53,013 nt of DNA from a virus: the IMG/VR virus record IMGVR_UViG_3300017971_000346, positions 1 to 53,013 of that record. One strand, written 5' to 3'. Below, piece by piece: positions 4,091 through 43,768 of this stretch. Under the pieces are notes generated by a model. That model was given only the letters and a program-made list of their open reading frames with translations. It had not been told where the DNA came from and made no database searches. A program made the position numbers and the translations under genes. Within the stretch, counting starts at the first letter, position 1. The number at the start of each line of letters is the position of its first letter.

Positions 4091-6250
4091 TCAATACCAT
4101 TCATAATAATTAGTGCCTCTACATTGTAAATCGCCTTTACAATTATCATATGCACCGTTTATTATTTTAACAAGCTCGGGATCACTTTGCAAATAAACTT
4201 TACCATCGATTTTCCTGCATTCAGAACAGATATTTTTATCCATAATTTCAGAACGTCTTATTTTATATGTTGATTTAATATCACCCGCTCGTTTATCCCG
4301 CGTTTTGTTAAATGACAAAAATGTAAATGAAGAAACGATATTTTCAAAAATCTTTTTGGATAAACTAAATAAATGTTCTTTTACTGTTGAAAAGACATTA
4401 AATTCTATGTAATTTATTTTTCCTTTTGTGTATTGTCCGTCCAGTACTTTCGTAGTCTCTTTTTTCAATCTAGCAGTAAAAGAACTAGTGACATATTGCA
4501 AAAAGGGGAAACATAATTTCCTATCATCTGTGATCGATTCCGCGATCTTTTCCCCTGTTTGCTTTTGATATTCCTTATCAATATCTTTCTTTATTTCATC
4601 CATAAAAGGTAACAGTGGAATTGAAATACTTTCGAATATTTTTGAATTATCTACTGAAAATGTATCAACATAATCCTGAATATCTTTTTTGCCAGTACCG
4701 ATTTCTATCATTATTTCAATATTACGTAAAAATTCATGTAGTACTAGTTTAAGTTCATTATTAAAAATTTTTAAAAACTTTCTATTATACTTTGTCAGAA
4801 TACTCACTTTTTCTGACAATGTAAATTCATACGGTTTAGGGACTCGGTAAAACTGAATAAACGGTTTGTTGTCAGAAAGATCGTAAAAATCAACTACTGA
4901 CATTTCTTCACTATCTTCCTTATTGATTGTTTTTTTTGAAGTAGTAACTTCAGGCACCGTTCCCTTATCCACTTTTATAATTGTTTCTTCTACTGGCAAT
5001 TCCAAACCATCGATAAAAAATTTTTTTAACTCTTCTGTAGGGTTCGCAATGCCAAACTTTTTCATTTTTTCTAACATGACGATCAAATTATCATAATCAA
5101 TAGTACGAATTTTTGGTTTCATAAATTTTGGTGGAATTACATTATCACCAAAATTTTCACGAACTAATCGTGGAATAATTGATCGTCCTTCAATATCTTT
5201 ATTTAAAACATCTTCTATAGAATTCGCAGTAGATTCCAGCGACAACATGAAAAAATTTGTTTTTGATTCTGCCAAACCGTAACTGCCAACGTCGGTCATG
5301 CCTACCATTAAAAAATTAGCTAAAAATCGATAAAACATTTGTCGATCTAATAAATCAATCTGTTTACTTAATTCTGGCATATTTGATATATTGCCGATGG
5401 TATTTAATTTATATCCGAACGGTGTGATCACATAACCTTTCTCATGAGAAACCCAGGTTTCACCAACTTCCTCCGCCGCTGTCTTATCTTCAGGTTTGGA
5501 ACCTGCTGGTAATTCTATATTAATTGTACGAATACCATAATTTTTAGCTGTAATAAGCATAATTTTTAAAATTAAATCTTTAAAATACCAATAACGGTAA
5601 ATAGCACGTAACATTGAAATTCCGGAATAATCTTTCCCACGTTTTTCCGCTGACCAAAGAATTAAATTTTCATTAGCGATTTGTAGATATTGGTATTTAT
5701 TATTTTTTGTAGCTAATTGAGTAATAGAAGTAAGATAATCATTTGTATGATTCCAATATTGGATCGTCTTTACAAGTCTAGGAGCTAAGTTTAATAAAAT
5801 TTGACCTTTATTAAAAATTCTTGCGGTCTCATGAATAGATACTCCCCACTCAATGCCGGACAAAATTTGATTCTGAAAGTCATTCCAAAGAAAATAAGGA
5901 TTTTCAAATAAAGCCTTTTCAACAAATTCAGCGACTTTTAAATCATAATTATCCTGAGAAGCAGGTTTTATCATTGAAGGGGATTGAGTTATCGGTAGTT
6001 TTATGGATAAAAGGCATGCCTGGACAACAGCATCGTTAATCATTTGCTCGATTAGATCATATTTGTTAATCATCCAATCAGATGAATAGTCGGAATCTGA
6101 ATATATACCGTTAAAATTTATAGTTCCGGATGCACCCTGAAATTTACTTCCATTTTGTGTATATTGCTTGAATCGTAAAAATGCCGCGTATTCATCTTTT
6201 GTTATTGAGACATTTGAGTTTTTCATTTGCTTTCGTTTGAATATATTCAT
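4091..6250 (-). CDS. Portal protein fused to MuF-like head morphogenesis domain
   Basis: At 719 residues it is longer than a lone portal. Residues about 30-450 resemble the DUF935 (Mu gp29-like) portal family: repeated acidic and helical segments and a 'GSYGLAESKTNFF' segment typical of the wing/clip region. Residues about 480-719 resemble the Mu gpF/SPP1 gp7-type domain, ending in a Cys-rich motif (CSECRKIDG, then CRGTNYYEW). These are usually two genes. It starts 3 nt after the terminase stop with an AGGA site and feeds DNA into the head as the portal ring. Confidence 0.88.
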   Translation of the reverse strand: MNIFKRKQMKNSNVSITKDEYAAFLRFKQYTQNGSKFQGASGTINFNGIYSDSDYSSDWMINKYDLIEQMINDAVVQACLLSIKLPITQSPSMIKPASQDNYDLKVAEFVEKALFENPYFLWNDFQNQILSGIEWGVSIHETARIFNKGQILLNLAPRLVKTIQYWNHTNDYLTSITQLATKNNKYQYLQIANENLILWSAEKRGKDYSGISMLRAIYRYWYFKDLILKIMLITAKNYGIRTINIELPAGSKPEDKTAAEEVGETWVSHEKGYVITPFGYKLNTIGNISNMPELSKQIDLLDRQMFYRFLANFLMVGMTDVGSYGLAESKTNFFMLSLESTANSIEDVLNKDIEGRSIIPRLVRENFGDNVIPPKFMKPKIRTIDYDNLIVMLEKMKKFGIANPTEELKKFFIDGLELPVEETIIKVDKGTVPEVTTSKKTINKEDSEEMSVVDFYDLSDNKPFIQFYRVPKPYEFTLSEKVSILTKYNRKFLKIFNNELKLVLHEFLRNIEIMIEIGTGKKDIQDYVDTFSVDNSKIFESISIPLLPFMDEIKKDIDKEYQKQTGEKIAESITDDRKLCFPFLQYVTSSFTARLKKETTKVLDGQYTKGKINYIEFNVFSTVKEHLFSLSKKIFENIVSSFTFLSFNKTRDKRAGDIKSTYKIRRSEIMDKNICSECRKIDGKVYLQSDPELVKIINGAYDNCKGDLQCRGTNYYEWY

Positions 6251-6252
6251 TG

Positions 6253-7656
6253 TTAAAATTTCCTGTTCATGAAAGTTTCTCGTAGTTGCATTTTATTAAC
6301 AGGCATGTTAAGTGAACGGTTCAGCGCCCTAGACTGATTACTCAAAAAATGAAAACTGATAGTCCGTTCCAATGCTTCTATAGCATGATTAGACGCAGTT
6401 TTCTCATTTTTATATTTGAACTCTTTTAACTCTGAAATCAAATTAACACAAGATTCGTGTATTTTAATTTGTCCGTTTTTGAACAATGGTTGAATAATCG
6501 ATCTTCTGACTTGAATTTCAATGTTAAAAGGAGCAAAATTCAAACCCTTCTGGGCAAACAGAAACGCCGGTGTTAGTTTGCCTAACAACTCACCGTCTCC
6601 GGATAATCCCTGGCTAGTCCCTTCCTTCTGAAACATCCGTTTACATCCGATATTAACAAACGATTCAAAATTATAAGTTTTATTTATTCCTATAAACGCA
6701 GTGACTGCATTATCAATACTGCTGTCAAATTCATAAAATTCTGAGTTTACCCAATATATTCCATTTTCAATCAATATGTCCAGTAAAACCATAGGTGAAG
6801 TATTCGAAATACCATAATCATTTCCGATCATCCGTTCACCATATTGTGGCCTTTTTATTTTTTCGAAATAATTGTGAGCAGTTAGATCGTAAATCATGCC
6901 TACATTGCCAAACCAGTTCCCCAATATGTATTTCTGAACCCAGTCATTAGAGTACGTTATATACATATCTTCATAATAATTTTTTTTCAGATGTTTCCTA
7001 TTAATCATGGGTTCCGGAGTAATCCCCAAAAAAGAATTATTAATACCTTGCCAATAACCGTATTGGACTTTATGTTTATCGCCACATATTTTAATCTCTT
7101 TTGTTTTTGTTTTTAAAGGAGTCCTAAAAAACAAATCTTTCAGATAGTGATCTCCCCCTTCCGTGTTACACGTGTAAAGCTTTTGATTCAAGACATTTGT
7201 TTGTCGAACTCGACCGCCAGCCAGATCAAAAACATCCTTTATTATCTCTTCAGCTTGGTCCATCCAAAGACCGCCAAGCTTAAGATTTTTTAATTGACCT
7301 ATTTGGTGGGGTTTGTCTACAGCGAAAAAACGAATTTCTGAACCGTTAGGATACCGCAAATGTTTTCTTGTCGAATGCCAATAATAAGCAGGATCTAGTG
7401 GTCCAATTCTATTTCCAAAAATTAATTCCATATATTCAGGTACAGTACTTGATTCTAATTCACCGCTAATATTCCGAAATATGGCAATTAAAATTCCAGG
7501 ATTTTCTAACATCATTTTATGAATTTTCAGGCAAGCAATTGAGGTTTTACCAGAGCCGAACTCACCGGTTAAAAGGATATTTTCTTTTCGGGAATCATAA
7601 AAAGCTTGCTGGTAAGGGTTTAGCTCGAAGGATGTTTTATCTCTAAAATTAATCAA
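6253..7656 (-). CDS. Terminase large subunit
   Basis: This 467-residue packaging motor has a Walker A at residues 31-38 (GEFGSGKT) and a Walker B-like segment GLWMDQAEE around Asp133; Gln follows Asp where Glu is more usual, with two Glu just after. A C-terminal nuclease domain is suggested by Asp280 in IGNDYG. The start is TTG at 7656, overlapping the small-subunit stop as TTGA, with only a weak GGAA site, so translation is probably coupled. It drives DNA into proheads and cuts the concatemer. Confidence 0.93.
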   Translation of the reverse strand: MINFRDKTSFELNPYQQAFYDSRKENILLTGEFGSGKTSIACLKIHKMMLENPGILIAIFRNISGELESSTVPEYMELIFGNRIGPLDPAYYWHSTRKHLRYPNGSEIRFFAVDKPHQIGQLKNLKLGGLWMDQAEEIIKDVFDLAGGRVRQTNVLNQKLYTCNTEGGDHYLKDLFFRTPLKTKTKEIKICGDKHKVQYGYWQGINNSFLGITPEPMINRKHLKKNYYEDMYITYSNDWVQKYILGNWFGNVGMIYDLTAHNYFEKIKRPQYGERMIGNDYGISNTSPMVLLDILIENGIYWVNSEFYEFDSSIDNAVTAFIGINKTYNFESFVNIGCKRMFQKEGTSQGLSGDGELLGKLTPAFLFAQKGLNFAPFNIEIQVRRSIIQPLFKNGQIKIHESCVNLISELKEFKYKNEKTASNHAIEALERTISFHFLSNQSRALNRSLNMPVNKMQLRETFMNRKF

Positions 7657-8048
7657 GTTAATTCCAGGGTTTCGGGTTCCTTATTGTCCTTGATTATTTC
7701 GATAATGTGTTTTAATGGTTTATCATCAGTTCCTAGTTGATCATACAAACCTTGTAACATTCCTAAATCTTTCAAAATATGAAGTGCGGTCATTAACTCA
7801 CCGTTGTCTTTAGCTGATGCAAATAGACGAAACCGATTGACTATATGCCACTCAATTTTCATTTTATTCGATTTTTGGTAGTGAAGTTTAATTTCTTTTT
7901 CAGCTAGTTTAACATAGCGGTACATTGACCGCCAACCAATGCCCCACTTATCGGAATATTCAACAACAATAGAGCGATGTGAACGTCCGTTTAAAATTTC
8001 AGTTACAATTGTACTAGTCCGTTCTTTTGTTTTGGATCGATCTGCCAT
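7653..8048 (-). CDS. Terminase small subunit-like DNA-binding protein
   Basis: This 131-residue protein has a helix-turn-helix-like segment near residues 20-50 (SHRSIVVEYSDKWGI followed by WRSMYRYVKLAE) and a helical C-terminal half, which fits a TerS that recognises the packaging site. It lies directly upstream of the large subunit with a 4-nt overlap. The ATG is unusual: it follows directly on the T-run of a terminator-like hairpin, and the only Shine-Dalgarno candidate (AAGGGG) is in the 3' arm of that hairpin. Confidence 0.8.
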   Translation of the reverse strand: MADRSKTKERTSTIVTEILNGRSHRSIVVEYSDKWGIGWRSMYRYVKLAEKEIKLHYQKSNKMKIEWHIVNRFRLFASAKDNGELMTALHILKDLGMLQGLYDQLGTDDKPLKHIIEIIKDNKEPETLELT

Positions 8049-9059: not shown

Positions 9060-9611
9060 CTACCGTTTTTTTATTATACTTCTGCAATTTGGTATACTGA
9101 TTGAATTTTTGTTACTTTTTATAAAGTCAGCTAAGCACGGAACACTTTCAAAATTCAACTGACTTTTCATCGAATCTTGTACTAACTGCGCTATCTCAAT
9201 TTTTTTTCTATCTGAAACATTCATTCCCTCAAAAATGATATTCCAAAATAAAGCAGAGAGAGCTACAGTAAAATAAGTTTGCTTCGGCGGAAATGCAACT
9301 ACAGATATTTCAGTGACATCGTTATTAACTATAGCTCCACCGATTTCATAAAACGCTAAACGACTATAAAAATAAATATCAAGTTTGGATGGGCCTATAT
9401 TCCCAGATGGATGATTATGGATAAGAAAATCACCCGGGAATATATTTCCAAATGGCAATACCACACTACTTTCCTCACCGTTTGATATTCGTTCTACTTT
9501 ACCAAACTTTTTACCATGTTTTCTTAACCGAAACAAATGCTCACGTTTTTTATTTTCACTGATCAGCCTTCTCATTTTTTTAATTGAGTGCGCGTTAATC
9601 AAATTTTTCAA
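9060..9611 (-). CDS. JAB/RadC-like putative metalloprotein
   Basis: This 183-residue protein carries a complete JAMM motif: an upstream Glu around residue 46, His65-x-His67-PSG, then Ser75 and Asp78 (HNHPSG...SKLD). This is the RadC-type zinc-binding signature. I chose TTG at 9611 because it overlaps the upstream stop as TTGA and has AAAGGAGAG at 8 nt; an ATG 27 nt further upstream lacks a good site. RadC-like JAB proteins occur with phage and anti-restriction loci, but their activity is not settled. Confidence 0.8.
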   Translation of the reverse strand: MKNLINAHSIKKMRRLISENKKREHLFRLRKHGKKFGKVERISNGEESSVVLPFGNIFPGDFLIHNHPSGNIGPSKLDIYFYSRLAFYEIGGAIVNNDVTEISVVAFPPKQTYFTVALSALFWNIIFEGMNVSDRKKIEIAQLVQDSMKSQLNFESVPCLADFIKSNKNSISIPNCRSIIKKR

Positions 9612-9844
9612 AACAATATCTCTCCTTTTCTTTGGCATCTTTTACAGATAGATTTTATTGCTGGTTTTTTATGACAGATACAACAAAGCTCCGCTTGGAC
9701 CGATCCTCTTTTTTTGATAAAAAAAACATCCGGGTTGAGTCGGATCAAATCCGGCATGCAATCTGAAAACTGCAATAAGTCCGGGATCAACGTTTTTCGA
9801 TCAACTCCTCGAATAATCACATCATGTAATTTTATAATTTTCAT
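9608..9844 (-). CDS. Small zinc-ribbon protein
   Basis: This 78-residue protein ends in a four-Cys knuckle pair (CCICHKKP followed by CKRC), likely binding one zinc. It overlaps the 3' end of the membrane-HTH gene by 23 nt and the JAB gene by 4 nt, so all three are probably co-translated. A nucleic-acid or protein adaptor role is likely; the family is not recognised. Confidence 0.7.
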   Translation of the reverse strand: MKIIKLHDVIIRGVDRKTLIPDLLQFSDCMPDLIRLNPDVFFIKKRGSVQAELCCICHKKPAIKSICKRCQRKGEILF

Positions 9845-11309
9845 CGTTAATTTCTCTGATAATTCTATAAATATATCCTTGACTAACTTTTTTACCTGTG
9901 ATCATTGGGTATAGCTTAAATATCGTAGAAGCATTTAAACCGATATTTTTATAACAATAGGCTATAAAAGGTTTACTTTTTGACTGTACGGATTCGTACA
10001 TATCTTTAAGATTTTTCTTACCTTCGACTGACAAATTCAACTCACCATCCTTTGCGTCGTTCAAAATAGCCAGTCCCTGTTCAATTTGTTTGTTCAAAAG
10101 TTCACTATTTAGTTCACTGTCTTTTGAACTAATTGAACTATTTGGTTCACTATTTCTGTGAACGTTCACTAAATTTTGAACCTGTTGTGAACTAATCTGT
10201 GAACCAGAGTGAACTATACCGTGTTCATTTTGTGAACTTTTTGAACTAGTAGATAAACGTCTCTGTTTACTCTTTTTAATGTCAATAATTTCTGTGTCAT
10301 CCCCTTGATTCAGAATCTTAAGGATTTGTTCCATATTTCCGGTAAGATTAGATAACTTTTCATACGTTTGTTTATTCTTAATATCTAATCTGGTAGATAT
10401 AATATCTTCAACTCTGCTTTCTAGGTAACGATTAGACATATCTGAATGTTCTATGCTATCGGTAACGGCACCTAGAATTGAATTTTCAAACAGAGAGTTA
10501 AGACGTAAGATGATGACATAAATATTTCTGATAGCCCAAAAGTAAACCGAAATATAAACCAATATTTCAAGTAGGAACCCTAGAATAAAGTTTGAAAATT
10601 TGATAGATACATTAATTCCAATTGATCCTATAATTGATCTAATGGTGTTGTCCAGGAAGAATGTTTCCGTGTTTCCGTCGTTAACTGCGTCGATTTTTTT
10701 GTTGGAAGTACTTTCCATTTTTTCGGTTAATTCTTTATTTCTATTTGTTAATTTATCAATATCCGCTTGAAACTGATCTTGTTTGTTGTGGAATCTAGTA
10801 GCTGACAATTTTTCGTTTAATACTTCGATGGTCTTATTATTTATTTTTATTTCATCTGCATAGACTTCTGATAATCCGGATGCTTCAGTATATTTTGTCG
10901 AAGTTTTTGCAATCTCATAAGCTCTGATACCCAACTCACTGTGAGAGGCAAATAAAGAAAATAGTAAAGAAATCGCATAAGAGACAATAGCATAATTTAG
11001 TAGTCCTTTACGGCCAAACTTTAATTTAATCTGTTTTTTACTGTCGATGAGTTCCTTAGAATCATACGCATAACTAAAAACTACTAACAAGATTATAGAC
11101 AATGTTTTTATTAAGTCAATTGCTGCTCCTAAAGGTACGGCAAATAATAAAGTATTTAACCACCAATCGATGGTCCAAGCAAAGTGCCCAGATAACCACT
11201 TTATTACTAATTTCATCGTTAAAAACATTGATACAATCGCTAATGAATAAGATAGGAAAGTATCTAGCCACTTTATCTTCGGTTGCTTTAATATATTTTT
11301 TTCATTCAT
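9822..11309 (-). CDS. Membrane protein with coiled coil and C-terminal putative HTH
   Basis: This 495-residue protein has about four membrane helices (residues ~16-38, ~52-80, ~103-125, ~240-270), a coiled coil between the third and fourth (~150-205), and a Ser/Asn/Glu-rich linker (~345-420). It ends in a helical domain with a helix-turn-helix-like segment (GLNASTIFKLYPMITG, then VSQGYIYRIIREI). The linker is encoded by a dense array of TGAAC/GTTCA motifs (10059-10246). I chose ATG 11309 (AAGGA site) over the TTG two codons earlier. One reading is a membrane tether that binds phage DNA; this is inference. Confidence 0.75.
   Translation of the reverse strand: MNEKNILKQPKIKWLDTFLSYSLAIVSMFLTMKLVIKWLSGHFAWTIDWWLNTLLFAVPLGAAIDLIKTLSIILLVVFSYAYDSKELIDSKKQIKLKFGRKGLLNYAIVSYAISLLFSLFASHSELGIRAYEIAKTSTKYTEASGLSEVYADEIKINNKTIEVLNEKLSATRFHNKQDQFQADIDKLTNRNKELTEKMESTSNKKIDAVNDGNTETFFLDNTIRSIIGSIGINVSIKFSNFILGFLLEILVYISVYFWAIRNIYVIILRLNSLFENSILGAVTDSIEHSDMSNRYLESRVEDIISTRLDIKNKQTYEKLSNLTGNMEQILKILNQGDDTEIIDIKKSKQRRLSTSSKSSQNEHGIVHSGSQISSQQVQNLVNVHRNSEPNSSISSKDSELNSELLNKQIEQGLAILNDAKDGELNLSVEGKKNLKDMYESVQSKSKPFIAYCYKNIGLNASTIFKLYPMITGKKVSQGYIYRIIREINDENYKIT
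10059..10246. repeat. Array of TGAAC/GTTCA motifs inside a coding region
   Basis: Seventeen copies of TGAAC or its complement GTTCA occur here, fourteen of them starting at 10100, 10112, 10125, 10134, 10145, 10159, 10164, 10177, 10188, 10200, 10210, 10223, 10233 and 10242. Most steps are 9-14 bp, about one helical turn. Both orientations and different codon phases are used, so codon use alone does not explain the pattern. A second array lies at 41222-41374. Confidence 0.85.
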
Positions 11310-11586
11310 GATCAAACAATCCTTGATATACTTTTATTATAATTCCTAATTCTTTTAATGAGAATGACTTTTCATATAACTTTTTTACCGCATCATGTTC
11401 TTTGAAAATATCGTTTTCCGTATAGTCTTTGATAACTAAATTAACTTTATATCGTATTTGTTGGTAATTTGGGAAAGAAATATCAATTGTACGCGCGTAT
11501 TTAACAAAATACGATAAATTAATAACAGTTAATTTACATAGATAAAAAAATTTCAATAGAATTAACTCTGATTCTGATGGGTTCAT
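11302..11586 (-). CDS. Hypothetical protein
   Basis: A 94-residue protein, mostly helical with many Tyr, Lys and Ile, and an AAAGG site before the ATG. It overlaps the membrane-HTH gene downstream by 8 nt and the preceding gene by 4 nt, so it belongs to the same unit. No motif is recognised; the Leu/Phe-rich stretch near residue 10 is too short and mixed for a confident membrane helix. Confidence 0.6.
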   Translation of the reverse strand: MNPSESELILLKFFYLCKLTVINLSYFVKYARTIDISFPNYQQIRYKVNLVIKDYTENDIFKEHDAVKKLYEKSFSLKELGIIIKVYQGLFDHE

Positions 11587-22313: not shown

Positions 22314-22420
22314 TGGCATGATTATTGGATATATTATATATAATATATATTTATATATATTATATAATATATTATTAATTATATATTTTTTTTTTTTTTA
22401 TTTATATATATATTAAAAAA
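22314..22420. other. AT-only palindromic tract
   Basis: After the preceding gene about 90 bp consist almost only of A and T, including a perfect 16-bp palindrome (22331-22346), a run of 14 T (22386-22399) and alternating TA stretches. No gene fits. It lies in the early control/replication side of the genome and could be an easily melted origin element; other explanations such as a weak bidirectional terminator remain open. Confidence 0.5.
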
Positions 22421-22489
22421 AATATAAAAGATCTAGTTATAAGAATATAATAATACTAGTAGCTTAATTAAACCAAAGGAGAAATCACA

Positions 22490-25148: not shown

Positions 25149-26090
25149 ATGGAAAAATTAAAATTTTTACTACTCAAAGTTAAAGGTGGGTATTTTGTTT
25201 ATTGCAAACATGCGGGTAATTTGAATTTAGTGTTTGATCGAAAAAAGCCGTTCTTAACGGATCGTTACAGCTGGCTTTTTATTCAAGGTGAATTTTCAAT
25301 CATTGAATCTGAAGATGAAGTGATCGAAGTACCGGCCAAATATGTACTAAAAGATAAATATAATTATCTTATCGATACCGCCAAAATTAAAAAAGAATAT
25401 TTCGCTGATGAATTCGAAGAAAATGAAAATTTGAGAGACTTTGCTGGGTGTTTTAATCACAATATGCCTAAATTTAAAACGGTCTATACGTGGCTAGATT
25501 ATGATCTACTTGTTATCGATGATTTACAGAAAATGGCAACGGAGCCATTTACAGCAGATAATTTGTTGTGTAAGAAAACATCGTATCCAAAACAAATCAG
25601 AATTTTTGACGAATTTTTCCCAAAAGCTTTGACAGACAGTTTCCGAGTCATAATACCAGCAGAAAAAGGTTTCAATTTATTTAAAGATCATTTGGAAATT
25701 ATGTCCATAAATATTCCTGACACTGAATTTCACATAGACGATTATACAGTCACAATTTGCAAAAAAATAATTAATACCGTTTTAGCGGAGTCTGAAATTA
25801 AGGATCAATTTAGATCAAAAATTCCAGCGGATTGCACGGAAAAATTAAATAAAATTATAGATCATAGTCGAGTATCCGCAAACATAGATTCTTATATCTG
25901 TATGTTTAAGGTAACTGCAAATGTAAGTCGGTTTTCTAGCTATCCGCAATTCCCAGTATTTACCGCTGAAACCGAAAAAGATGCTATTGATTCGATTAAG
26001 CAATTTGCAAAAAATGTAATCGAATATGTTTCGGCCCCTGTTAATCTCTGTGATAATTGTCAAGGTAAAGGTTTTACATTTTCATGTTAG
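25149..26090 (+). CDS. Hypothetical protein with C-terminal CxxCxGxG motif
   Basis: This 313-residue protein has AAAAGGAG before the ATG. It is alpha/beta with an acidic middle (DEFEENENLRDF) and ends in CDNCQGKGFTFSC, half of a DnaJ-type zinc finger placed at the very C-terminus. No catalytic motif is visible. It lies among replication genes, and with no primase recognised in the genome it is one place to look for a divergent one, but there is no positive evidence. Confidence 0.65.
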   Translation: MEKLKFLLLKVKGGYFVYCKHAGNLNLVFDRKKPFLTDRYSWLFIQGEFSIIESEDEVIEVPAKYVLKDKYNYLIDTAKIKKEYFADEFEENENLRDFAGCFNHNMPKFKTVYTWLDYDLLVIDDLQKMATEPFTADNLLCKKTSYPKQIRIFDEFFPKALTDSFRVIIPAEKGFNLFKDHLEIMSINIPDTEFHIDDYTVTICKKIINTVLAESEIKDQFRSKIPADCTEKLNKIIDHSRVSANIDSYICMFKVTANVSRFSSYPQFPVFTAETEKDAIDSIKQFAKNVIEYVSAPVNLCDNCQGKGFTFSC

Positions 26091-28502: not shown

Positions 28503-28530
28503 AGATGCCGGTTCACCCGGCATTTCTTAT
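28503..28530. terminator. Bidirectional terminator between convergent genes
   Basis: ATGCCGG/CCGGCAT stem (28505-28511 with 28517-28523) with a 5-nt loop, T-rich on the plus side. It separates the plus-strand operon ending at 28501 from the minus-strand ATPase gene ending at 28513. Confidence 0.75.
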
Positions 28531-29469
28531 TTTCACCCAAATAGACGGCATTTGATACCCCTGTTTTTTTGCAATAAAACCCATTGAGTGTAACATTCTT
28601 CGTACAATAGGGTATTTAACTTCAAAATTATCTTTTTTTGCTGTTTTGATAATAGCGTTAATCGTAATATCTTCGTATTTTTCATACATTTCTTTTATAA
28701 TTTCTGAAACCGCAATATCAATCAATTCTTTTTCAGTGTACTGTTTTTCTTGTTTTATTTGTATCCAATGAAAACCATCTGAATCAATTCGATATTTTAA
28801 ATCATTCCCCTGAATTCCATAATTACATTTTGTGTGTTTCATCAAACAGACAGTTTGATTATTATTACATTCATCTATTATCCGTTGGACATTACATTGT
28901 GATCTTGCTGCTCCGAGTATTCCTACAGTCCCTATACCGATATTTTGAATATCTTGATTTGTATTTTTCCCCCAATGCCGAACAATGACAATTGCAAGAT
29001 TTAATTTTGAAGCAACTGTTTGAAGTGCATCTAAATAAGGTACTACCTCTGTTATGTTATTGATATTACGATCACCCAGATAAGATTGTAATGGATCAAT
29101 TACGATTAGATCAATCTGATGCGTAGAAAGCTCAATAATAAAATTTCTAAATTCATCTTCATTTGTTAGGTCAAACGTACTATCATCAAAAAATATGTCA
29201 TTTCCTTTATATTTGAATAATTCTAAGCGAGGCTTTATAACAGTGTTTGGATCGTTTTCTTTTGTAAGATATAATGTTTTCAAATTCTTTACAGTAGATT
29301 TTTCGCCGGAGATACTTTTACCGGAACTGATAGCGGTCGCAAGGTTTAGAGCAAGAAAACTTTTCCCAGTCGAAGGTTGCCCATCTAAAATAGTAATTGA
29401 TTTTCTAACAACATAATTTCCCCAAAGTTGATCAATTTTTGTTGCGGCAAACTCATTCATATTTTTCAT
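28513..29469 (-). CDS. RepA-like RecA-fold ATPase, probable replicative helicase
   Basis: This 318-residue protein has Walker A GQPSTGKS (30-37), a 'KENDPNTVIKPRL' segment, Walker B LIVIDP (about 122-127) and the 'VRHWGKN' segment typical of the plasmid/phage RepA (AAA_25) group of hexameric helicases. A winged-helix-like C-terminal part follows. AAGGA precedes the ATG. It is transcribed opposite to its plus-strand neighbours, from the divergent region near 29.7-29.85 kb. It may work with the DnaC-like protein. Confidence 0.85.
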   Translation of the reverse strand: MKNMNEFAATKIDQLWGNYVVRKSITILDGQPSTGKSFLALNLATAISSGKSISGEKSTVKNLKTLYLTKENDPNTVIKPRLELFKYKGNDIFFDDSTFDLTNEDEFRNFIIELSTHQIDLIVIDPLQSYLGDRNINNITEVVPYLDALQTVASKLNLAIVIVRHWGKNTNQDIQNIGIGTVGILGAARSQCNVQRIIDECNNNQTVCLMKHTKCNYGIQGNDLKYRIDSDGFHWIQIKQEKQYTEKELIDIAVSEIIKEMYEKYEDITINAIIKTAKKDNFEVKYPIVRRMLHSMGFIAKKQGYQMPSIWVKIRNAG

Positions 29470-38126: not shown

Positions 38127-38669
38127 TTATCGTCTCCTAGCCAATACAAACTTTAAATAAGTAGTCCCGGAGTGCGATCCGCCATCCTTTAAAAACAATC
38201 TGAAAACATCACCGGACAAAACAGGAAGTAAAACAGCTGGAAAATTTCCCTCTGCTGTAATCTTACCTGTTAAATCATCCGAAAAATAACAATTAGATAA
38301 CGATGCTCCGGTATACGCCAAACTTGCGGCATTGGAAAAACACGAATCCGCAAATATTGAACTTTTATTGGCGTTTTGAATTATTACCGAAATATCCGGA
38401 GTCCCGCCGCTAACATAAGCTTGTACACTAAAATCAGACCCAATGTTTTGAAAATATTTCGAATAAACGGAATCCCCTGAAACAAACATAATTTCAAAGC
38501 TATCAATTGCAGCATCCGTAAAAGTTGTATCATTACCGTTCGATGTACGGTAATCAAAATCAATTAGCGTACTCATCGAACGATTGCCGGAAATTTCCCG
38601 TTGCCCGTATCCAATGGTAACAAAGGAAATCAAAAATAATAAAATTAATTGTTTGTATTTTCTATCCAT
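38127..38669 (-). CDS. Exported beta-rich protein
   Basis: A 180-residue protein with a signal peptide (hydrophobic core LILLFLISFVTIG, likely cleaved before Gln 23). The rest is Ser/Thr/Asp-rich with beta strands and Gly turns, like the other exported proteins here. GGAG lies upstream of the ATG. It overlaps the end of the sigma-54 activator gene by 25 nt, so the two are coupled. Function unknown; a surface or virion role is possible. Confidence 0.65.
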   Translation of the reverse strand: MDRKYKQLILLFLISFVTIGYGQREISGNRSMSTLIDFDYRTSNGNDTTFTDAAIDSFEIMFVSGDSVYSKYFQNIGSDFSVQAYVSGGTPDISVIIQNANKSSIFADSCFSNAASLAYTGASLSNCYFSDDLTGKITAEGNFPAVLLPVLSGDVFRLFLKDGGSHSGTTYLKFVLARRR

Positions 38670-39628
38670 TTTTCAGTCTCCGAATCTTCAATATTATATT
38701 TTTTAGTTTTATATGTAAGAACACGCTCTGTTATTCCTAGTAATTCAGCGGATTCTCTTTTATTATTTTTTGTAAAAATTAACGCTTTAATTATCGTATT
38801 TTTTTCAGTTTCTTCTAAATTCAACCTAGAAGTATCTAAATTTAAAAATACTTTTCCATCATACCCCTTCACTGCTGTTCTTGAGTATTGGTAATTATTG
38901 AAATCTAAATTATTTTTTGTTAAGGAGCCATTGCAAAGTAAACACCCTTTTAAAATAAAGTTTTTTAATTCGCGGACATTGCCGGGCCAAGAATAACTTT
39001 TTAAATGATCAAATATATTCTGTTCAATCTTAATATTTTTTTCTAATTTTACCATATTTTGACCTACTAGAACAGGTACGATCAAATCTAGATCTTCTAG
39101 CCTATCGCGTAAAGCAGGGATGTTAAAGGTTATTTCATTCAGTCGATATAACAAATCTTGCCTGAAAACTTTAGTATCAAAAATATCTTGATTTGTAGCT
39201 GAAATTAAACGAAAATCTGAATGAAAAACAGTGGCACCGCCGACTTTTTTAAACTCTTTTTTTTCAATTACATGCAGTAGTTTAGCTTGCATATCTGGTA
39301 AAATTTCTCCGATTTCATCTAAAAACAGCGTAGAGCCATTCGAAAGTTGAAAAATTCCGTCCTTTGCTTTCGTTGCCCCTGTAAACGCTCCCTGAACATG
39401 CCCAAAAAATTCACTTTCAAATAATCCGGTCGCTATACTGGCACAGTTGATACTCCTAACACTATGCAATTTTCTATCGCTATTTCTATGGATGAATCCT
39501 GCGATCTCACCTTTTCCGGAACCAGTTTCACCGATTAACATAATATTAATGTCAAACTTTGCTGCTTTTTTGATTTCCTTTAAAGTATTCTTAAACGCTA
39601 TATTTCTTGTTTTATCGATTTCTATCAT
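38645..39628 (-). CDS. Sigma-54-dependent transcription activator (bEBP)
   Basis: This 327-residue protein is an NtrC-type AAA+ activator: Walker A GETGSGKG (33-40), the sigma-54 contact loop GAFTGA (80-85), Walker B LFLDE (101-105), an 'RLNEITFNIPALRDR' arginine-finger region, and a Fis-like helix-turn-helix near 290-320. No receiver or GAF domain is present, so it should be constitutively active. The start overlaps the upstream tail gene stop as ATGA. It may switch late genes on through host sigma-54. Rare in phages to my knowledge. Confidence 0.92.
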   Translation of the reverse strand: MIEIDKTRNIAFKNTLKEIKKAAKFDINIMLIGETGSGKGEIAGFIHRNSDRKLHSVRSINCASIATGLFESEFFGHVQGAFTGATKAKDGIFQLSNGSTLFLDEIGEILPDMQAKLLHVIEKKEFKKVGGATVFHSDFRLISATNQDIFDTKVFRQDLLYRLNEITFNIPALRDRLEDLDLIVPVLVGQNMVKLEKNIKIEQNIFDHLKSYSWPGNVRELKNFILKGCLLCNGSLTKNNLDFNNYQYSRTAVKGYDGKVFLNLDTSRLNLEETEKNTIIKALIFTKNNKRESAELLGITERVLTYKTKKYNIEDSETEKWIENTNN

Positions 39629-41193: not shown

Positions 41194-41221
41194 TTTAATA
41201 CCTCTTATGGATAAAATAAAT

Positions 41222-41374
41222 TGAACTAATTTAAAATTTCAGTGAACCGGAATTGAACTAAAATGAACCATTAGTTCAAAATTGCTAAACTTTTTGAACT
41301 ATATTGAACCTGACTGAGTGAATTTTAACGCTATCGATAAAATTTGGTTCAATTTGCATTTAAGCGTAGTGAAC
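41222..41374. repeat. Second array of TGAAC/GTTCA motifs, intergenic
   Basis: Nine copies start at 41222, 41243, 41254, 41264, 41274, 41295, 41305, 41347 and 41370. Steps of 10, 11, 21, 42 and 23 bp are near whole helical turns. The 181-bp gap (41194-41374) between two tail genes has no ORF, so here the pattern is not shaped by codons. The array matches the one inside the membrane-HTH gene. Confidence 0.85.
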
Positions 41375-43768
41375 TTAATCAAAATAATCTGTTGTTGAGT
41401 ACGTAGCAAGTAATTTTATTTGTTTTATTTGAACTAATTTTACTGTAGTTGGTGGGTATGTACCGGACGTACCAACCCAGTCCGCACGAACCCTTATTAC
41501 TGTAGCTCCACCTAGATTCAACACATACATATCTGCGTACAATTTTTTTGAACTAGTTTCATCATAATAAATTTTTTTATATATTTCTTTTACATCTGTA
41601 CCAGAAGGATTTTGGATTTTTAGGTAGACTTCAATATATTCTGAATCTGAACCTAACGATTCGTTAGGTTGCTGAAGTTCAAACCTATACATAACACGAT
41701 CAACGTTTGTCCAAGTTGGTGAAATGTCCGCTACAGCATCGCCGGGTTGCAATGTTCCAGCAGCATGATCTGAATTTTCAGTAAGATCGGTTTCATAAAT
41801 ATCATCTTCCACTATTACTTCACCGCTCCAGGTTCCTGCGTGTCTATATCCTAAATAAGATGTCAGTTCAGCTATTACATCCAACTTTGAACCGCTAAAT
41901 TTATGAATTATATTGGTTATTTCGCATCCATCGTTTTCAAATCCCTTAGTGCCATTTAGAGGCCAAAGCAACGTGGGATACGTAAGATTAATAACATCCC
42001 CTGTTTGGTGCAACATTTTTTTAGAGGATAATTTAGCATTAATTTTCAGTGGGGGATTTCCAAAACGAGTTACAATTTTATTCATCAGATAAGTTTCATC
42101 TGCTGTCAGAAAGTATAAATCGTTTAATTCAATTCCATACGGTTTTTGTTCACCATAAACAACGTCTGTAGTTACATTCCTAATCATTCGTTTTTTATTA
42201 TAATTTCCGACTTTTATTGTTTCTACTAATCTATCTGTGAACTGTTTATAATCAACTTTCTGACTTTCTGATAAATAAATAATATCATCCTGAGTAATGT
42301 CCCACAAACCAGAATTTTCCACGTGAACATCAAAAAATAATACTCCTATTTTATGATTAGACGTTAGTATAAATTTCAATCCTAATGATTTGAAAATCAT
42401 CGATTCTAAAAAATCTAAACCATCATCTAAACCATCATCTATATCGAAAATATATTGTTCACGGAGCCAATTAACAGTATAACCTATCTTATTGGATATC
42501 CATTTTTGCCACTCGTTTTTAATTTGATTAACATCAAATAAACTTATTGACAGGCCCATACCGTAATCAGAAACCCCATTATCCCAGTCACCGTTTAATC
42601 CGGTTCCGGTACTCGTTAGAATACCCATAACTAAATCAAGAGATTCAGTCGTATAGTTATAAAAATGTAATATCTCTTTTATTGTAGCCCCTTCGCTATG
42701 ATCTTCCGAAGCATTTCCAAATGCTCCGCGTGTTCCCAGTGTAAAAGTAGTTGATGTTTTTGCGGTGTATTCGACAAATTCACTGTCAATTTTCAATAAC
42801 GTTTTTCTATGTGTTCCGACCGTTCCTTCAGTATCCCAGCTTGGCGTTTGTGCGGTTTGAAAATCTGCTGTAGAAGCAACCCCAATTACTTCAATATCTT
42901 CCTTGATTGATAAATTATCGATCCAAAATTGATCACCGGAATTAGCCAATGTAATTGAAATCGTCATATTTCCAGGATCGCTATTCGTGGTGAAAGAAGT
43001 TGCTTGGCTACCGGATGAAATAGACAAAGCAGTTGCGGAACTGGCAATCCCTACTGTTAAACTCGCGGTCGGGGAACCGATAACATTTGAAATACTGTAG
43101 CGTAGAATATACCGAGTATTTGGTTTTAAATTTTGGGCAAAGTCAGATTTATATTGATATATTGTACCGGCATCCGGTGAACCGGTCGCAAATACAATTA
43201 CATTTGTATACGTTGCATTCCATGCTGCTGCTCCAGAAAATCCCCAAAAGATATTAGATGAAAAATCACCGTTTGATAAATGTTCTTGCGCCGTTGCTGG
43301 GAACCCATTCGACAATGTAGTCCGAGCCAGATTTCTAAAAATCGGTTTAGCTTTTAAAATTTCGTTTTTTGCGCGTAATTCAAAAGTTAAACCATTGTTA
43401 GTAATATTAAAATCAATTATTTGTGCAATTGGAAAAGTGACAAAATCTGATTCAGTTAGACTTTGAAAACCAACCTTGACAGTCAAATCTTTTCCAATTA
43501 GATCATACCCAACTAAAGATGTAACTGCGTCATTCAAATTAACAGCTTTTAGTACAAACCCGCCAAACTGAGTCCTGCAACTGAACTCATCAAACATAAG
43601 CGGTGTTATTGTTAAATCAGTTCCAATTTTATAATAATCCGTGGTAATCCCAGAGAATGTATTACTACAGATTTTCAATGTAGAAATACCTTGAATTTCT
43701 GCAATCCATACCCAGTCCTGTGAATCTTGCGCTAATAATGCATTAAAATTACTGTTTGCTTCGATCAT
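41375..43768 (-). CDS. Large tail-tip/baseplate hub-like protein
   Basis: This 797-residue protein follows the tape measure in late-gene order. The N-terminal ~150 residues are a beta-rich hub-like domain (GIDLTITPLMFDEF-like start, FNITNNGLTFELRAKN), then a jelly-roll insert (about 155-290), a further beta domain, and a C-terminal part with another beta sandwich. It overlaps the tape-measure gene as ATGA. By position and length it fits the tail-associated hub (Dit/Tal region). No enzymatic motif recognised. Confidence 0.65.
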   Translation of the reverse strand: MIEANSNFNALLAQDSQDWVWIAEIQGISTLKICSNTFSGITTDYYKIGTDLTITPLMFDEFSCRTQFGGFVLKAVNLNDAVTSLVGYDLIGKDLTVKVGFQSLTESDFVTFPIAQIIDFNITNNGLTFELRAKNEILKAKPIFRNLARTTLSNGFPATAQEHLSNGDFSSNIFWGFSGAAAWNATYTNVIVFATGSPDAGTIYQYKSDFAQNLKPNTRYILRYSISNVIGSPTASLTVGIASSATALSISSGSQATSFTTNSDPGNMTISITLANSGDQFWIDNLSIKEDIEVIGVASTADFQTAQTPSWDTEGTVGTHRKTLLKIDSEFVEYTAKTSTTFTLGTRGAFGNASEDHSEGATIKEILHFYNYTTESLDLVMGILTSTGTGLNGDWDNGVSDYGMGLSISLFDVNQIKNEWQKWISNKIGYTVNWLREQYIFDIDDGLDDGLDFLESMIFKSLGLKFILTSNHKIGVLFFDVHVENSGLWDITQDDIIYLSESQKVDYKQFTDRLVETIKVGNYNKKRMIRNVTTDVVYGEQKPYGIELNDLYFLTADETYLMNKIVTRFGNPPLKINAKLSSKKMLHQTGDVINLTYPTLLWPLNGTKGFENDGCEITNIIHKFSGSKLDVIAELTSYLGYRHAGTWSGEVIVEDDIYETDLTENSDHAAGTLQPGDAVADISPTWTNVDRVMYRFELQQPNESLGSDSEYIEVYLKIQNPSGTDVKEIYKKIYYDETSSKKLYADMYVLNLGGATVIRVRADWVGTSGTYPPTTVKLVQIKQIKLLATYSTTDYFD

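Follow-up and report, generated by a model that had tools for sequence, protein, structure and literature searches.

Two phased TGAAC/GTTCA site arrays in a tailed phage genome, one of them within the gene for a predicted membrane-HTH protein

Results

Gene content of the window and the gene holding the first array

The window analysed here is a virus record of 53,013 bases, and its PHROG and Pfam matches are those of a tailed phage. Minus-strand genes at 1.4-8 kb encode the capsid, protease, portal and terminase, the region at 31-35 kb encodes a DNA polymerase, an exonuclease and a Sak4-like protein, and the tail genes occupy approximately 39-48 kb. No Rfam matches and no tRNA were identified in the window. 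A 700-amino-acid open reading frame on the minus strand runs from 527 to 1 and from 53013 to 51435, and is open in frame over the joined ends. This suggests, and suits rather than proves, that the genome map is circular or circularly permuted; direct end repeats were absent from the record. Scans for relatives of the terminase, capsid, polymerase, sigma-54 activator and AAA_25 proteins returned distant matches only or none. The product of 25149-26090 (plus strand) has a weak Pfam match to Gad1 (Gabija anti-defence), just over the cutoff (27.6 bits vs 27).

The first array, A1, lies within a minus-strand gene at 9822-11315, which encodes 497 amino acids from a TTG start, or 495 from the ATG at 11309. 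Hydropathy analysis showed four hydrophobic segments (residues ~20-43, 62-80, 105-123 and 244-269), and a Ser/Gln/Asn-rich linker, probably disordered, coincides with A1. The AF2 model predicted a C-terminal HTH (pLDDT 85), a four-helix domain of 74 amino acids encoded at 9822-10046 (minus strand), the HTH-like fold of which is also indicated by structural matches. The nearest of these include the HTHs of phage small terminases (Z 6.8, the best match) and KorA (Z 4.4), and they support an HTH moderately without pointing to any specific function. Foldseek searches with the domain returned nothing with an E below 0.001. The HTH fold and the membrane segments are both predictions. No sequence relatives of the protein were found in phages, plasmids, IMG/VR or GTDB contigs, and the absence of any PHROG or Pfam match gave it no identity as an O/DnaD-like initiator. 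A RadC-like JAB domain protein, under the Pfam cutoff, is encoded near this gene (9060-9638, minus strand).

A1 is a cluster at the DNA level

A1 comprises 17 exact TGAAC/GTTCA sites at 10059-10246, nine on the plus strand and eight on the minus strand, within the linker codons for amino acids 357-419. The initial annotation had described 14 copies in 150 bp, in both orientations and mostly at 9-14 bp steps. The present count agreed and made the cluster stronger than first described: 14 of the 17 sites were in a single 150-bp window, and 13 of the 16 steps measured 9-14 bp. The further claim that all codon phases are used held in part, as several phases occur; TGAAC is never in phase 0, because TGA there is a stop codon, and GTTCA is in phases 0 and 1 only.

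When the 63-amino-acid stretch was recoded with the phage codon usage (20,000 trials), the mean was 3.5 sites and the maximum 10. Permutation of the synonymous codons within the stretch itself (20,000 trials) gave a mean of 6.95 and a maximum of 14. Shuffling with the protein and codon use preserved, which the initial annotation had named as a check, thus did not reproduce the observed 17 sites. An unbiased 5-mer scan of the 53-kb window placed TGAAC first for clustering (E 2.9e-15) among the words containing any G or C, and the next-best word of this class not overlapping TGAAC at A1 had an E of 0.04. AT-only words form runs denser than the TGAAC arrays, but these are simple AT tracts. A1 is real, and it is a feature of the DNA. 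The best 60-bp window near A1 is 78% AT (93rd percentile), and no AT-rich opener was seen there in windows of this size.

A second array shares the phasing and the flanks of A1

The present analysis identified a second array, A2, which is absent from the initial annotation. Its 10 TGAAC/GTTCA sites (41222-41434) lie mostly in a 181-bp gap (41194-41374) that separates two minus-strand genes; a single site falls within the 41375-43768 gene, at its 3' end. The probability of such a cluster by chance is ~7e-8 over all windows. As an intergenic array cannot arise from codons, A2 is independent support for A1. Outside the two arrays, the window contains 121 TGAACs, which is the background level. An AT-rich tract beside A2 (41541-41600; 85% AT, in the top 1% of 60-bp windows) is a possible unwinding element. 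A near-pure AT island (100% AT over 60 bp) is located between genes at 22330-22425, near a strand switch and distant from both arrays; it could be an unwinding element or an origin.

For A1 the best-fitting period was 10.9 bp (coherence 0.73), and for A2 it was 10.4 bp (coherence 0.92), each equalled in ~1.5e-4 of random placements, which bears out the helical phasing proposed for 10059-10246. When the observed gaps were permuted, the values were 0.012 for A1 and 0.10 for A2, so part of the phasing signal is simply that most gaps are about one turn or a multiple of one turn. The sites of both arrays tend to lie mostly on one helix face.

The two arrays also share a flank preference, W-K-TGAAC-Y-A, which is missing from the 121 background TGAACs. 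Position -2 is A or T in all 27 of the 27 array sites vs 60% of the background, and position -1 is G or T in 94% of the A1 sites and 90% of the A2 sites vs 54% of the background. A flank model built from A1 ranked A2 above the background TGAACs (p 0.003), and the A2 model did the same for A1 (p 0.004). One-mismatch versions of TGAAC were not conspicuous within A1 or A2. Given this common preference, A1 and A2 appear to consist of one type of site recognised by a shared protein; they are DNA-level site arrays, probably for one protein.

Candidate binders

The product of 9822-11315 is the most likely candidate binder of A1 and A2, since arrays within or adjacent to a gene are usually bound by the product of that gene. 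An alternative candidate is an AAA_25/RepA-like helicase of 318 amino acids (28513-29469, minus strand; AAA_25 E 5e-21). Its C-terminus may be a winged helix, modelled as H-H-H-E-E at low confidence (pLDDT 63); the structural matches of this region (best Z 2.7) were given no weight, as the model is poor. The helicase and polymerase genes adjoin neither array. A PspF-like sigma-54 activator (38645-39628, minus strand; Sigma54_activat E 2e-52), the second gene downstream of A2, has an AAA+ domain with GAFTGA and a Fis-type HTH and is without a regulatory N-terminus; it is a less likely array binder.

Among the scanned window proteins, no match was found to D5_N, Pox_D5, a Toprim primase, a D5/SF3 primase-helicase or an O/DnaD-like protein, the AAA_25 helicase being the only relevant match. 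No ParA, ParM or other partition NTPase was identified among the scanned proteins, many of which are without an assigned function. The scanned open reading frames of the record, comprising nearly all of the large ones, gave no convincing integrase match.

Similar arrays in other phages

IMG/VR was scanned for four head-to-tail TGAACs at 10-12 bp. The scan returned 117 stretches, including 42 non-tandem arrays of at least six sites. The control word TCAAG, of the same composition and in the same geometry, returned 59 stretches and 14 such arrays, an approximately threefold enrichment of TGAAC in non-tandem arrays. Several non-tandem, mixed-orientation TGAAC arrays were located near replication genes, namely D5 (L011, L042, L064 and L084), VapE-like (L041), DUF3987 (L083 and L027), DUF927/Cch (L118) and AAA_25 (L086) genes. 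In L023, a gene matching DnaD-like and O-like PHROGs (phrog_2514 E 2e-18) encloses a GTTCA array, and the related genes of L010 and L021 contain similar internal arrays. Four IMG/VR contigs (L010, L021, L023 and L024) carry initiator-like genes with short-core GTTCA arrays in linker codons, and such origins within genes may be common.

Ten of the TCAAG control loci were checked, and one array adjoins an integrase gene, one adjoins a D5 gene and one is inside a gene of the Phg_2220_C family, which we take to be replication-related. The first of these, at L126:1505-1753, is in mixed orientation and directly borders the gene for a tyrosine integrase, and it resembles the arm sites of an attP. With yet another word, 11 GTAAC/GTTAC copies directly 3' of a primase gene in Streptococcus phage SW19 (L189:6105-6355) have the appearance of a short-core iteron origin. 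As TCAAG arrays occur in the same geometry, one-turn geometry and a 5-mer are no proof of an origin, and the 117 viral matches do not establish TGAAC as a word for origins. These sequences indicate that phage origins and attP sites have one-turn arrays in general, among which TGAAC is enriched and not diagnostic.

Discussion

Relation to known systems

Satellite phage P4 has two separated arrays of type 1 iterons for its alpha protein, ori (9310-9413) and crr (4314-4585), as the window has A1 and A2. The 'ori type 1 repeats' annotated in the P4 record in ori and crr are mostly TGTTCACC; the GTTCA core, the mixed orientation and the 10-11 bp steps within the P4 ori clusters are all shared with the window. 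The outer bases differ, as the P4 sites extend as GGTGAACAG and the window sites as WKTGAACYA. Furthermore, the original annotation places the P4 arrays between genes, whereas A1 is in a gene, and P4 has a gene for an alpha-type primase/SF3 helicase/winged-helix initiator, none of which was found among the scanned window proteins. P4 alpha binds the origin repeats via its winged helix (PMC4234260).

The lambdoid origin is an iteron array in the middle of O, the gene for a phage DNA-binding protein (PMC7466680). A1 is similarly placed within the linker codons of a gene for a putative DNA-binding protein, in this case between the membrane part and the predicted HTH. However, lambda has four iterons adjoining an AT-rich region, whereas A1 has 17 short sites with no AT-rich region beside them, and the A1 gene encodes a predicted membrane protein with no O-like match. 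The DnaD/O-like genes of L023, L010 and L021 share with A1 the core, the 10-11 bp steps and the position in linker codons, but contain at most six sites per 250 bp and no recognised membrane segments. The array linked to a DUF3987 primase-helicase gene in L083 has 17 TGAAC sites in both orientations, and its consensus, AAATTGAACYAAATT, is nearly that of A2 (flank model p 6e-7), a likeness inflated by the AT-richness of both arrays. Unlike A1, the L083 array is intergenic, flanks an AT-rich stretch and adjoins the helicase gene; a direct comparison of the window HTH with the C-terminal HTH of L083 gave nothing significant.

The centromeres of ParR/parC, StbA and pSK1 Par are also composed of approximately one-turn repeats, bound by the partition protein. 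The window differs from these in its mixed site orientation, in the fusion of the predicted HTH to membrane segments and in that no partition NTPase was found. Judged by these comparisons, A1 and A2 would fall outside the P4 and lambda-O families as a variant of phage iteron arrays.

Interpretation of the arrays

Our preferred reading, a tentative one, is that A1 and A2 are replication-initiation platforms for a single phage HTH protein, most likely the product of the A1 gene. The arrays would present one W-K-TGAAC-Y-A site per turn, and copies of the protein would stack along a single DNA face in each array, forming a nucleoprotein complex. The two arrays would most likely cooperate as an initiation region in which one is the origin and the other a distant helper, like ori and crr of P4. 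The linker that A1 overlaps is probably disordered, which would explain why the array is tolerated within a gene, just as the lambda origin is situated in O. Were the binder the A1 gene product, the initiation complex would be located at the membrane; the AAA_25 helicase, with its possible winged-helix tail, would be the second candidate. Binding, the identity of the binder, origin function and the cooperation of A1 and A2 are all steps that we infer. This initiation reading is the best supported, drawing on the recoding nulls, the significance of A2, the phasing, the common flanks and the parallels with P4 and with L023 and L083. Against a plain origin are the lack of an AT-rich opener at A1, the lack of a match to a known initiator family among the scanned window proteins, the fact that neither array adjoins the helicase or polymerase genes, and the TCAAG arrays in the same geometry.

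The initial annotation had proposed a DNA-level cluster superimposed on the linker region of a membrane-HTH protein, and the recoding null, the phasing, A2 with the same flanks and the predicted C-terminal HTH all agree with this. Its suggestion of an origin or a partition site is plausible for both functions, with the P4, DnaD/O-like and DUF3987 loci favouring the origin-like one. It is also possible, and here we are more guarded, that a membrane-anchored HTH protein binds the array in its own linker codons and a second array 31 kb away, and so fastens the phage genome to the membrane in two places; it would act either as an initiator located in the membrane or as a single-protein centromere.

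The main rival is that the membrane-HTH protein holds or segregates the phage DNA at the membrane through A1 and A2 without starting replication, whether for phage-plasmid partition, replisome anchoring or genome organisation. The four hydrophobic segments, long linker and C-terminal HTH encoded by the A1 gene would suit such a role, as would the one-turn spacing, which suits cooperative stacking, and the lack of a DNA opener at A1. However, the scanned proteins include no ParA, ParM or other partition NTPase, the binder is a candidate only, and the closest sequence parallels are replication loci; we regard this rival as unlikely, though deserving of serious weight.

Control of transcription is a still less probable role. 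A1 and A2 would then be operator or roadblock arrays, possibly looping the DNA between them, and could silence or time the late genes. With the record read as a circle, the two arrays lie on either side of the 22-kb module of head and tail genes; the 181-bp gap containing A2 is upstream of the 39625-41193 gene, and in the direction of transcription A1 precedes the genes for terminase, portal and capsid. However, there are only two clusters and the other 121 TGAACs are at background, unlike dispersed stoperators; moreover, A1 is not at a promoter, and 17 close-packed sites exceed normal operators. The self-regulatory array suggested initially fares poorly as simple autoregulation, since A1 is located over 1 kb downstream of the start of the gene and A2 is far from the gene altogether.

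Integrase arm-type sites (attP) or a packaging/terminase recognition array are very unlikely. The resemblance of the L126 TCAAG array to attP arms and the best match of the HTH fold to phage small terminases are in their favour, but no convincing integrase was found among the scanned open reading frames, no core-type site was seen, and the arrays are located ~2 kb from the small terminase candidate (7653-8048) and in the tail region. Marginally more remote is the idea that the arrays are enhancer sites of the sigma-54 activator. The position of the activator gene downstream of A2 and its Fis-type HTH would fit, but A1 is 28 kb away from it and sigma-54 promoter-like sites in the phage are at chance level (15 observed vs 14.4 expected); long arrays of short monomer sites are, in addition, an unusual form for sigma-54 enhancers. 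Coincidence of a low-complexity Ser/Gln/Asn linker with codon bias can be dismissed: such linkers do favour some GTTCA (AGT TCA encoding Ser-Ser), which raises the synonymous permutation mean to ~7, but none of the 20,000 permutations reached 17 and the intergenic A2, with the same flanks, is beyond a codon explanation.

Significance

To our knowledge, where and how replication starts, and whether it does so at the membrane, is known for only a few model phages. The array encoded within a predicted membrane-HTH gene offers a directly testable case, as synonymous recoding would erase the DNA sites and leave the protein untouched. The loci compared here suggest that short one-turn GTTCA iterons, including those within genes, recur at the origins of unrelated phage replication systems. 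If the enrichment of the word over control words holds, such iterons could serve as a guide to the origins of uncharacterised phages.
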